Source: an uncultured bacterium
GTDB taxonomy: Bacteria > Myxococcota_A > Polyangia > Polyangiales > Houyiibacteriaceae
Direction of reading: 5' to 3'
Length of the DNA: 37,297 nucleotides
Assembly: GCA_937984275.1 (NCBI GenBank)
Contig: CALJYC010000046.1
Location: forward strand, 1-37,297
Shown: one piece after another, positions 2,868 through 37,297 of the stretch
Position numbering within the stretch: the stretch's first letter is position 1
Layout of the letters: the number at the start of each line of letters is the position of its first letter
Notes under the pieces: generated by a model
The model's input: the letters and a program-made list of their open reading frames with translations, nothing else
Database searches by the model: none
What the model was told of the DNA's origin: nothing
Made by a program: the position numbers and the translations under genes

Positions 2868-2960
2868 GCGCACCCGCAACTAGCGAAAACCAGGTCGAAA
2901 TTCGCCCATCCAACGCCGCCTTTTTGCGCTTTTTCGTTTGTGTAGGTGATCATACTACAT

Positions 2961-3827
2961 ATGACGACATCTGCAGCGGTCGCGGCGAGGATCGAGCAAC
3001 AGCCACGGGAGGCAGCCCCCTTTGTGAAGTGGGTCGGGGGCAAGGGCCGATTGCTGAGCCAGCTGCGACCGCTGCTCCCTTCAGGGGTAGAGCACATGCG
3101 CCACGTCGAGCCGTTCGTCGGCGGCGGCGCGCTCTTTTTTTCGCGTCGCCCTGGGCGAGCGCTGCTGACCGACATCAACCCGACCCTGGTGGCGGCGTAC
3201 TCTGCGATTCGTGACGACGTCGAAGGTGTGATCGTCGCATTGCGTGGGCTTGCCGGCCGCCACTCCAAAGAAAGCTATTACCAAGTCCGCGAGCGCTACA
3301 ACCAGGGTAGGCGTGTGTCCACGTCAAAGCGGGCGGCGATGTTCATCTACCTCAACAAGACCTGCTTCAATGGATTGCATCGCGTGAACCGCAAAGGCGA
3401 GTTCAACGTGCCGGTCGGGTCGTACAAGAACCCACGCATCCTGAACGAGGACGGCCTGCATGCAGCGAGCCGCGCCCTGAAAGACGCCCAACTGAAATGC
3501 GCACCGTTCGATGCACTGCTCGAAGACGCCAAGCCCGGCGACTTCATCTACTTCGACCCGCCCTATGAGCCAGTCTCCCAAACCGCCAGCTTCACGTCGT
3601 ACGCCCGCGACGGCTTCTCCCAAGAAGACCAGACGCGCCTACGCGACGTCTACAAAGCCCTCGACCGCCGAGGCTGCAAACTCATGCTCTCCAACAGCGA
3701 CGTCCCCTTCATCCGCAATCTCTACAGCACCTTTAACATCGACACCGTAGCCGCCCCCCGCGCCATCAACTGCGACGCCAAAAAACGCGGCAAAGTAAGC
3801 GAAGTAATAGTCCGCAACTACCAATAA
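2961..3827 (+). CDS. DNA adenine methyltransferase, D12 class (Dam-like)
   Basis: A 288-residue N6-adenine DNA methyltransferase. It has the alpha-class order: the AdoMet loop FVKWVGGKGRLL at residues 21-32, EPFVGGGALFF at 50-60, the helix with YLNKTCFNGL and the catalytic DPPYEPVS at 199-206 followed by FTSY. Dam recognises GATC, but whether this enzyme does cannot be read from sequence. I favour the ATG at 2961, which has AGGTGA at 2944-2949; a GTG at 2946 is possible but has no ribosome site. No restriction endonuclease is adjacent, so it is an orphan. The gene stops five bases before the palindromic element at 3832. Its last third is strongly C-rich on the coding strand (about 102 C to 44 G between 3541 and 3780), unlike its balanced 5' part; see the findings. 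Confidence 0.92.
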   Translation: MTTSAAVAARIEQQPREAAPFVKWVGGKGRLLSQLRPLLPSGVEHMRHVEPFVGGGALFFSRRPGRALLTDINPTLVAAYSAIRDDVEGVIVALRGLAGRHSKESYYQVRERYNQGRRVSTSKRAAMFIYLNKTCFNGLHRVNRKGEFNVPVGSYKNPRILNEDGLHAASRALKDAQLKCAPFDALLEDAKPGDFIYFDPPYEPVSQTASFTSYARDGFSQEDQTRLRDVYKALDRRGCKLMLSNSDVPFIRNLYSTFNIDTVAAPRAINCDAKKRGKVSEVIVRNYQ

Positions 3828-3831
3828 AAGT

Positions 3832-3893
3832 AAAAGGGGTCAGACCCCTTTATTAAAGGGTTAACCCTTTTGAAAAGGGGTCTGACCCCTTTT
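3832..3893. repeat. 62-bp palindromic REP-like element between convergent genes
   Basis: The two outer arms each carry a GGGGTC-GACCCC hairpin: GGGGTCAGACCCC at 3836-3848 and its reverse complement GGGGTCTGACCCC at 3877-3889. They flank a central palindrome AAAGGGTTAACCCTTT at 3855-3870. The whole unit is one inverted repeat centred on the TTAA at 3861-3864, with only positions 3852-3854 failing to pair with 3871-3873. It lies between dam (plus) and the MFS gene (minus), the classical position of REP/BIME elements, and ends in a T run on each strand, so it could also act as a bidirectional terminator. The TTAA supplies the stop codon of the MFS gene. A second copy of the arm is at 36986. Confidence 0.9.
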
Positions 3894-5186
3894 TCGTGCG
3901 TACGGGGGGAGGCCCCAGGCTGCGGTTGCGGCGGCGAGTGGGGCGAATACCGCGGCTATGCCGGACAAGGCGATGTGCAGGGTGTTGTCGCCACCTAGGA
4001 CGTGAGTTGTCAGCGCGCCGACTAGGGGCGGGCCCAGCCCCAAGCCGACGAGGTTTGCGGCAAACAATAGGAGTGCGGATGCGAGCGCTCGCATTTCGTT
4101 GGGTGTGACCGTTTGGAGGGCGGCGATCGCTGGGCCGAAGTAGCTGCTCATCAGGAACAGGATCGGAACCGCCATCCACAGAGCCCCCTGCTGTGTGGGC
4201 ATCAGAGGTCCGAGAATGCCGGGGACCAACCACAGCAACGCCGCCAGGACCACAACGCGCATGTTGGCATCGGGGTATCGATGACTCAGTCGCTCGGCCA
4301 AGAGACCCCCAGTCAACGCACCGACGCTTCCGGCGATGATGAAGATCCAGCCGAACTTGGGCCCAACTTGACTGGCCTCCGCGCCGAAGCTGCGGATCAG
4401 CATCTCGACGTACCAAGTGATCGTGCCATACCCGAGCACCGACAGCATCGAGACGCTTCCTAGGATCGATCCATAGAGTCGCGCGTGGGTGCGAAAATAC
4501 CGAAGCACCTCGCGAACCGGCACCCCTTCTCCTTCGGCGCGCGTTCGACCGTGACGCTTGGGCTCTCGGATCGTCCAGACCAACGCGCCGACGGCAAAGC
4601 CCGGAAGCCCCACCAAGATGAAGGTCAGCTGCCAGGGCTCGAGTGAACCGACGATGGGAAGAAGTAGCTCCGTGTCGCCGACGGCGCCTAACACCCAGCC
4701 GCCGATCATGTACGCCATCCCCCCACCGATGGTGATCCCCAAGGTGAAGATCGACATGGCGCGCGGCAGCAGCTTGGCCGGGAAGAGGTCGCTCAGCAGT
4801 GAGTGTGCCGGCGGCGACAACGCAGCCTCGCCCACGCCGACCCCCATCCGCGCCACGAACAAGCCACCAAAGCTCCGCACCAACCCGCACACGCAAGTCA
4901 TGACCGACCAAGACAACACGCCGACTCCGACGATCGTCCGCCGGCTCTTTCGGTCGGCTAAACGTCCAATAGGCAAACCGAGGACCGTATAGAAGAGCGT
5001 AAACGCCAGCCCATGCAGCAACCCGTATTGGAAGTCGGTGATTTCGAACGACTTGCGAATCGGCCCAACGAGGATCGCCATGACGTTGCGATCGATGAAG
5101 GACAGGATGTAGGCCAGCAGCAGAACAGTCAGCGCCCAGCGGGCACGGGGCCGACTGTCGGACAAATGAGCGGCGTCGGGTGTCAC
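3861..5186 (-). CDS. MFS transporter
   Basis: A 441-residue major facilitator protein with about 12 hydrophobic segments. The first helix carries YILSFIDRNVMAIL and the loop between helices 2 and 3 has GRLADRKSRR, the MFS signature between TM2 and TM3. The subgroup resembles the transporters often labelled spinster-like, but the substrate cannot be inferred. The start is a GTG at 5186; no in-frame ATG lies close by. The last dozen residues (RKRGQTPFQKG) are encoded by the palindromic element at 3832-3893, and the stop TAA is the centre of that palindrome, so the original C-terminus was probably different. The 3' 250 bases share the element-associated composition bias. It is separated from mlaF by a hexanucleotide repeat, so a shared operon is uncertain. 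Confidence 0.9.
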   Translation of the reverse strand: MTPDAAHLSDSRPRARWALTVLLLAYILSFIDRNVMAILVGPIRKSFEITDFQYGLLHGLAFTLFYTVLGLPIGRLADRKSRRTIVGVGVLSWSVMTCVCGLVRSFGGLFVARMGVGVGEAALSPPAHSLLSDLFPAKLLPRAMSIFTLGITIGGGMAYMIGGWVLGAVGDTELLLPIVGSLEPWQLTFILVGLPGFAVGALVWTIREPKRHGRTRAEGEGVPVREVLRYFRTHARLYGSILGSVSMLSVLGYGTITWYVEMLIRSFGAEASQVGPKFGWIFIIAGSVGALTGGLLAERLSHRYPDANMRVVVLAALLWLVPGILGPLMPTQQGALWMAVPILFLMSSYFGPAIAALQTVTPNEMRALASALLLFAANLVGLGLGPPLVGALTTHVLGGDNTLHIALSGIAAVFAPLAAATAAWGLPPYARKRGQTPFQKG

Positions 5187-16708: not shown

Positions 16709-16723
16709 GCCGGAGAGTGTCCC

Positions 16724-20329
<3,606 letters not shown>

Positions 20330-36335: not shown

Positions 36336-37297
36336 ATGAGCCCTGATCGCGTCGGCGGAAGGCGGAGGCCGGTTCGCATCGCCTTTGCCATAGTGCTCGC
36401 GCTGCAGGTCTTCTTGGCCGTGTGGGGCGTCGCCGATCAATGGACTCGCGGCCACAACGGCTGGAACGGCTCCGCGTATCACAACGCCGCGCGCAACACG
36501 TTGCGCTGGGACGTGCTGTTCCCGCTGCAGTATGAGACCGCCAACGTTCCCCCGAAAAGGGAGCAGCTCTACACGCACGCACCGCTCGCGCTGCACCTAC
36601 ACAACGTCGCCAGCGTGAAACTCTTCGGCGATCGCGAGGTGTCTATCCGGCTGGTCGCAGGCTTCTGGAGCGTGGCCGCCCTCTGCATGTTGTTCGCCGT
36701 GGTGCGACGCCTCTGGGACGATGCCCACGCCCTAGCCGCCTCCGCGATCTACGTCGCCCTCCCGATCAACGCGATCTACACCAACATGGCCAACCACTCG
36801 GCCGGCTTCATCTTCTGGTCCCTACTCACCCTCTACCTCTACATCCGAGCAATCCGCGCCCCACCCTGGCGCCGCCTGGACTTCGCCCTCTTCCTCGCCA
36901 CCTTCGCCATCGCTGCCAGCTGGGACTGGCCCGCCTATTACATCGCCGCCTGCATAGCCCTCCACTGGACCCACACACTCACAAAAAAAGGGGTCAGACC
37001 CCTTTTCAGAAGGGTAGGCGATAGCGTGGGCGCGGCGAGCCCCGTGGGCGATGCAAAGCATCGACTTTACGGGGTGGGGCAGGACAACCTGCCGCCGCAG
37101 GCGTCCGGCGAAAATTTCTCGAGGCTCGGGGTGTTTTGTGGGTGGGTGGTTCTTTTGTTTTTGGGGCATTTCGTGTTGGTGGAGGTGGTCACTGGGAATC
37201 TGGATGAGTTGACAGGGGCATTCAATACGCGGCGGGCGCTTTCTTGGGCGCGATTTCGGACGCACTTACTGGTGGTGCCACAGCTGATGTTCACGGC
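36336..37297 (+). CDS. membrane glycosyltransferase, GT39/ArnT-like (3' truncated by window end)
   Basis: An open frame of 320 codons running off the right edge without a stop. It starts with an ATG 33 bases after mcd. An N-terminal membrane segment (AFAIVLALQVFLAVW) is followed by a luminal loop with GHNGWNGSAYHNAARN, then several hydrophobic helices (VAGFWSVAALCMLFAVV, ASAIYVALPINAIYT, AGFIFWSLLTLYLYI, FALFLATFAIAASWDW). This order resembles dolichyl-phosphate-mannose or lipid-linked sugar transferases (PMT_2/ArnT). The donor is unknown, and the usual acidic residue in the first loop is replaced by His/Asn. From about residue 217 to 259 the frame reads through the second palindromic element without disruption, after which hydrophobic sequence (VVLLFLGHFVLVEVV) resumes. 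Codon use switches across the element from C-ending to G/T-ending. Confidence 0.75.
   Translation, partial: MSPDRVGGRRRPVRIAFAIVLALQVFLAVWGVADQWTRGHNGWNGSAYHNAARNTLRWDVLFPLQYETANVPPKREQLYTHAPLALHLHNVASVKLFGDREVSIRLVAGFWSVAALCMLFAVVRRLWDDAHALAASAIYVALPINAIYTNMANHSAGFIFWSLLTLYLYIRAIRAPPWRRLDFALFLATFAIAASWDWPAYYIAACIALHWTHTLTKKGVRPLFRRVGDSVGAASPVGDAKHRLYGVGQDNLPPQASGENFSRLGVFCGWVVLLFLGHFVLVEVVTGNLDELTGAFNTRRALSWARFRTHLLVVPQLMFT
36986..37110. repeat. second palindromic element with additional hairpins, inside a coding frame
   Basis: The left end is the same GGGGTCAGACCCC arm with flanking A and T runs (36986-37006). It is followed by a structured stretch. There is a nested stem with CCCCGT at 37040-37045 pairing ACGGGG at 37069-37074 around CGATGC/GCATCG at 37049-37063, then a hairpin GGCAGG-ACAA-CCTGCC at 37078-37093, and a weak GCCG/CGGC stem at 37094-37109. 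The right boundary is set by the end of visible structure and is uncertain. The element is transcribed and translated as part of the glycosyltransferase frame. Confidence 0.8.

Follow-up and report, generated by a model that had tools for sequence, protein, structure and literature searches.

The window analysed here, a stretch of 37,297 nucleotides, closes within a gene for a membrane mannosyltransferase-like protein (Pfam PMT_2; 36336..37295, plus strand), which forms a single plus-strand frame that stays open through an insertion and is still open where the contig ends. At 36985..37015 (plus strand) lies a REP-type palindromic unit, AAAAAGGGGTCAGACCCCTTTTCAGAAGGGT, a 31 bp palindrome with the core GGGGTCAGACCCC; judged against orthologues, it is an in-frame insertion in a linker of the gene. 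Adjoining it is a second, longer repeat segment (GGCGATAGCGTGGG...GGTGGGGCAGGAC...GGCGTCCGGCGAAAA; 37016..37107, plus strand, approximate limits), which is present at the same site in G015, and further matches to this segment were found on contigs G000:C396 and G015:C187. Further copies of the longer repeat (GGCGATAGCGTGGG..GGTGGGGCGGGAC) lie at lepA in G016 and at two places in G013, with some skew there too (L186:3572; L195:12542; L253:1465).

The insertion separates two blocks of opposite composition. The left halo (36721..36984, plus strand) is rich in C and A and poor in G and T, with 67 C to 13 G at the third positions of the last 90 codons, while the right halo (37108..37297, plus strand), cut short by the contig end, is rich in G and T and poor in C (third positions C6:G33). 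The skew switch reported here by the first-pass annotation is borne out by a recount, which gave 37 C and 41 G in 36601-36720, 111 C and 45 G in 36721-36960, 29 C and 59 G in 37141-37297 (G had been put at 60), and the same excess of T over A in 37141-37200 (24 T, 5 A); its statement that both flanks belong to one plus-strand gene also holds, the frame 36336-37295 spanning the insertion. Nowhere else in the window does the excess of C over G per 240 bp reach that of the left block (69, against a mean of 2.2 and a standard deviation of 13.1), and the runner-up outside it (58) lies near 3529, beside the first copy of the palindrome. The switch statistic at the element in this gene corresponds to z = 5.3 within the window, where values of at least 0.35 occur only at the two palindrome copies. 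As the contig ends at 37297, the return to balance within 300 bp on the right, proposed as a check, was read in the sister species G015 and G013 instead, where it is reached at a distance of some 180 bp (per 30 codons, C10/G12 and C11/G13, respectively).

The first copy is an inverted pair of the same REP unit around AAGGGTTAACCCTT (3832..3893, plus strand; cores at 3836 and 3877). Its left halo (3481..3831, plus strand) has a GC skew of about -0.3 and an AT skew of up to +0.35, and its right halo (3894..4200, plus strand) a GC skew of +0.14 to +0.17. A gene for a D12-class DNA adenine methyltransferase (2946-3827 of the window) ends directly at this pair. A milder step at 16725, raised earlier as a caution with no element seen there, is real (95:65, then 58:92 on recount), but an element had been overlooked: GGAGAGTGTCCCC, a unit of another REP/RAYT family, lies at the smc stop codon (16712..16724, plus strand). 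It matches exactly the sequence that ends a RAYT insertion lying between leuS and an mglA-like gene (L052), and GGAGAGTGTCCC, the end sequence of one of the two Y1 genes of this genome, recurs at window positions 16712-16724. This second REP family of the window is conserved at the smc stop in about ten congeners, and its unit explains the step.

Across the 3.49-Mb genome, the core GGGGTC[A/T]GACCCC occurs 103 times and a reversed control sequence not once; in the congener G013, assembled as a single contig, the element is GGGGAC[A/T]GTCCCC. Copies are arranged as singles and as inverted pairs with a spacing of 41 bp. At 40 element clusters of this genome the left side is A/C-rich and the right side G/T-rich, a pattern that is gone by 300 bp. 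When 102 flanks at 51 sites of this genome and G013 were pooled, the G/T excess of the outward strand was +0.139 in the first 200 bp and 0.000 farther out (Mann-Whitney p 2e-22). The halo extends 250-300 bp per side, is symmetric and is strongest next to the element, and the inward strand is correspondingly C-rich and G-poor. Gene 3' ends with an element have a value of +0.300 (n=15) versus +0.018 without one (n=207), and gene 5' ends +0.258 (n=11) versus +0.007 (n=212). The pattern is reproduced in G013 on its own and across some 17 congeners. The element-linked reversal of skew is thus real and general, and is systematic across the genome. As a separate observation, several draft contigs stop at most a few hundred bases from a REP (G000:C26:77, C48:12, C141:214, C155:51, C158:84 and C168:132), which suggests that the assembly breaks at such repeats. 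Tandem arrays of short CAGTGCCAGTGC / GGCACTGGC repeats are found at sites of this kind too, beside REPs or in their place (just right of the REP in L009 and L012; upstream of rluB in G016 and G018).

The direction of the surrounding genes does not account for the halo. Genes that point towards the element have an inward-strand A/C excess of +0.152 and those that point away one of +0.143; noncoding DNA has +0.124, and the excess falls to about zero at 500-1200 bp. Halo strength being alike in inward and outward genes, transcription direction is not the cause, and element-free gene ends have values near zero; the earlier argument that neither gene orientation nor convergent 3' ends can explain the reversal is thereby upheld, and extended from one gene to the genome. 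Most of the excess sits in third codon positions (+0.365 and +0.243, versus +0.05 and -0.05 far from elements); first and second positions are shifted less, and so is noncoding DNA (about +0.12, against about +0.30 at third positions). Only 6 of 58 element clusters are intragenic by rough gene calling.

What kind of element is this? In four other genomes the palindrome core lies 4-18 bp from Y1/RAYT genes, and the congener G012 has a RAYT gene flanked on its two sides by ACAGT and ACTGT versions of the palindrome, GGGGACAGTCCCC and GGGGACTGTCCCC. These observations identify the palindrome as a nonautonomous REP unit, the end of an element of the REP-associated tyrosine transposase type (RAYT; Y1/HUH). 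Neither of the two Y1 genes found in G000 is bracketed by the GGGGTC[A/T]GACCCC core; both Y1 genes of this genome lie in skew switches of their own. By eye, no GTAG or GTGG tetranucleotide foot is common to the listed copies, the 5' foot being variable, and we therefore describe the element only as RAYT-linked and REP-like; non-canonical subclasses have been described (PMC6006769). Three RAYT proteins of the genus score 59.4, 59 and 52.4 bits against NF047646 (REP_Tyr_transpos), under its curated cut-off of 80, and pass the Pfam Y1_Tnp cut-off.

The halo accompanies this transposase class specifically. REP-class RAYT insertions in the genus have halos of +0.229 on the left and +0.209 on the right (far values +0.03 and +0.06), the 13 loci representing only about five independent sites since several are the leuS 3' site in different species. 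Other Y1 genes in the same genomes have no halo (+0.082 and +0.002), nor have Y1 genes from other genera of the family and order (+0.038 and +0.026), ruling out a general effect of Y1 transposases. The palindrome sequence as such is likewise ruled out as the cause, as 109 clusters of the same sequence in other genomes show no mean skew, and 17 clusters of E. coli K-12 REPs in 150 kb have no halo. A Bacillus locus (L116; -0.52/+0.45) was set aside as a probable case of gene-direction skew, and L129, first taken for another taxon, is the ligA locus of an organism closely related to the genus.

The history of the skew was traced at six half-sites in up to 17 congeners. Third-position skew near the element reaches +0.7, versus about +0.1 far from it, and is specific to site and lineage. 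Tree reconstruction places the main shift on the stem of clade A, which holds this genome: the rate of A/C-gaining change there is 0.127 near the element versus 0.036 far (3.5x), and that of A/C-losing change 0.011 versus 0.036. After the stem the bias in clade A is weaker, and clade B shows no drive. Substitutions as a whole are no more frequent near elements than far from them (0.300 versus 0.325 at third positions), which leaves continuous hypermutation unsupported. All substitution types shift towards the skew, G-to-C included, while the reverse types drop. No mutational context signature was found, and pure deamination was rejected because there is no clear signature of this kind and G-C transversions participate. 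Recent changes in the group of G000, G015 and G017 run mildly against the skew.

Element and skew do not always coincide. Intact elements without skew occur at ligA in G009, G016 and G018, genomes in which the search gave no close RAYT match, and at the window gene in G016. The ligA cases show that insertion can precede skew. Conversely, skew without an element is seen in G017 at the window gene and in G007, G010, G012 and others at leuS, where 3' sites without a RAYT are skewed in several species; such sites lie mostly in clades whose relatives carry elements or remnants, and at lepA and rluB the values of clade B species without an element are close to zero. The finding that the first-pass annotation regarded as fatal to the association, an element-free orthologue with the same skew, was thus made in G017, which lies inside a clade where sister species carry elements at that spot, but deeper element-free orthologues (G012, G005 and G018) lack the reversal. 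The G017 case is probably explained by loss of the element with a lingering footprint, and is not a clean test. The simplest sequence is insertion, followed by skew and, in some species, by loss. The orthologues show a skew that originates in particular lineages, outlasts the element and is eroding at present.

The elements themselves have changed without moving. At all sites of this genome that can be mapped onto the G013 stretch, an element lies at or beside the corresponding place, yet nearly all of the mapped cores differ, being TCWGA in this genome and ACWGT in G013. The core pair T-A is replaced by A-T in nearly every copy at L016:3000, L020:4687, L021:3000, L022:3000-6724 and L024:1174 (G013 counterparts 41835, 318743, 154787, 372829-372870, 369131-369176 and 221472), and the change leaves the hairpin paired. 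At ligA, the TCWGA and ACWGT types alternate among close relatives, and in others the copy has decayed. An exchange of this kind is not what copying to fresh sites yields; fixed positions with swapped but still-paired cores require either concerted in-place replacement or co-evolution with a protein that recognises the hairpin. We consider it possible, though somewhat doubtful, that the RAYT/REP family leaves a two-sided, strand-specific footprint in the genes beside it by cutting resident copies repeatedly and rewriting them in place, a process that would also exchange the cores throughout the genome and leave their positions unchanged across the genus.

The best mechanism that we can propose for the halo, tentative and with somewhat less than even odds of being right, is RAYT-dependent nicking followed by outward strand displacement or repair. 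The transposase would recognise the hairpin and cut a strand there, both at insertion and during later turnover of resident copies. A polymerase would then extend the 3' end outward, displacing the strand that has its 5' end at the element, and base loss or miscoding on the exposed or newly made outward strand would turn C and A into T and G. As either strand can form the hairpin, events would take place on both and yield a mirror-image halo, the length of which would reflect the displacement tract, and repeated rewriting of cores in place could supply the many events needed. The polarity, with C and A lost and G and T gained on the strands leaving the element on both sides, fits displacement and also a weak fixation bias. 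What speaks for strand displacement is that the halo goes with one RAYT class and takes no account of gene context; what speaks for fixation bias is that the rate is not raised and that every type of substitution is shifted. The unraised rate, taken with recent changes that oppose the skew, implies that any mutagenic process would be episodic or past.

Fixation bias could take the form of selection, if the element is a putative bidirectional hairpin terminator and its flanks are selected to give a C/A-rich, G-poor, unstructured incoming RNA resembling a Rho utilisation site. The C-rich, G-poor inward strand suits this idea, as does the AAAAGGGG..CCCCTTTT hairpin, which with its A-tract, GC stem and T-tract resembles an intrinsic terminator, and a shift of all substitution classes at an unraised rate is what weak fixation bias would leave. 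Even so, we regard selection of this kind as rather unlikely: the halo also occurs inside a coding gene and at divergent starts (ligA), where termination is unwanted, inward and outward genes are equally affected, third codon positions shift more than noncoding DNA, elements of the same sequence in other phyla and E. coli REPs lack a halo, and recent changes oppose the skew. An insertion preference reverses cause and effect, the RAYT targeting pre-existing A/C-to-G/T switches, for instance as unfolded, accessible single strands, in which case the halo would be what the enzyme seeks out. That one RAYT class alone has a halo suits such a preference, and skewed sites without a visible element, at the window gene in G017 and at leuS in G010, G012, G007 and others, are what it would lead one to expect; but there is no stock of empty switches (10 element-free skew peaks in 400 kb of G013, no excess over the 15 of a mirror-image control), element-free gene ends centre on zero, clade B species without the element have values close to zero at lepA and rluB, some intact elements lie in DNA that has no skew, and the skewed species without elements fall mostly in clades with elements or remnants. 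We judge such a preference improbable.

Transcription running outward from the element both ways would leave G/T-rich non-template strands and so matches the polarity. It is nevertheless very unlikely, as genes running toward the element show the opposite skew just as strongly, and gene bodies (lepA, smc) have no third-position G/T excess. The draft genome is fragmented and the window itself ends inside a halo, which might raise the question of chance or an assembly artefact, an explanation made scarcely credible by 102 flanks with p 2e-22 and by the recurrence of the pattern in single-contig G013 and some 17 congeners.

Few bacterial repeats are as common as REP sequences, and the action of RAYTs on resident copies in vivo is poorly known. 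A literature search for REPs with local skew found no paper, a search for the palindrome sequence itself brought up nothing of relevance, and as far as these searches go a halo around REPs is, to our knowledge, undescribed. Under RAYT-dependent nicking and displacement, a strand-specific halo would be a readable record of RAYT activity by which insertions and losses could be dated, and an example of a mobile element that reshapes neighbouring codon use and protein ends from outside. If selection is the cause, about 100 REPs per genome would act as two-way termination zones.

The features described here recall several known systems. Rickettsia palindromic elements, too, are palindromes inserted into a protein gene without loss of its reading frame; unlike these, the present family is tied to a RAYT and its in-gene copies are a minority. 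At replication origins, G/T-rich strands leave a central point both ways over megabases, whereas here the asymmetry spans 300 bp and is repeated at some hundred sites. Further parallels are the REPtrons of TnpA-REP (PMC8266576) and the HuH survey (PMC6006769), which likewise describe RAYT genes bracketed by hairpins matching dispersed units, and enzymes that cut single-stranded REP hairpins in vitro; the passages searched do not mention skew in flanking DNA, and the RAYT of this genus lies below the NF047646 cut-off (59 versus 80 bits). Together with the REPIN papers (PMC3116915, PMC8049555), they deal, in the passages found by term search, with hairpin cutting in vitro and REPIN populations and with no compositional halo. 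The RAYT-mobilised REPs and REPINs of Pseudomonas fluorescens SBW25 (PMC3116915) and E. coli resemble our family in comprising about 100 short palindromes, as singles and inverted pairs, mostly intergenic and tied to a Y1/HUH transposase; the present elements differ in that no canonical GTAG foot was seen, in their 250-300 bp halo, in the swapping of cores in place between species and in some intragenic copies.
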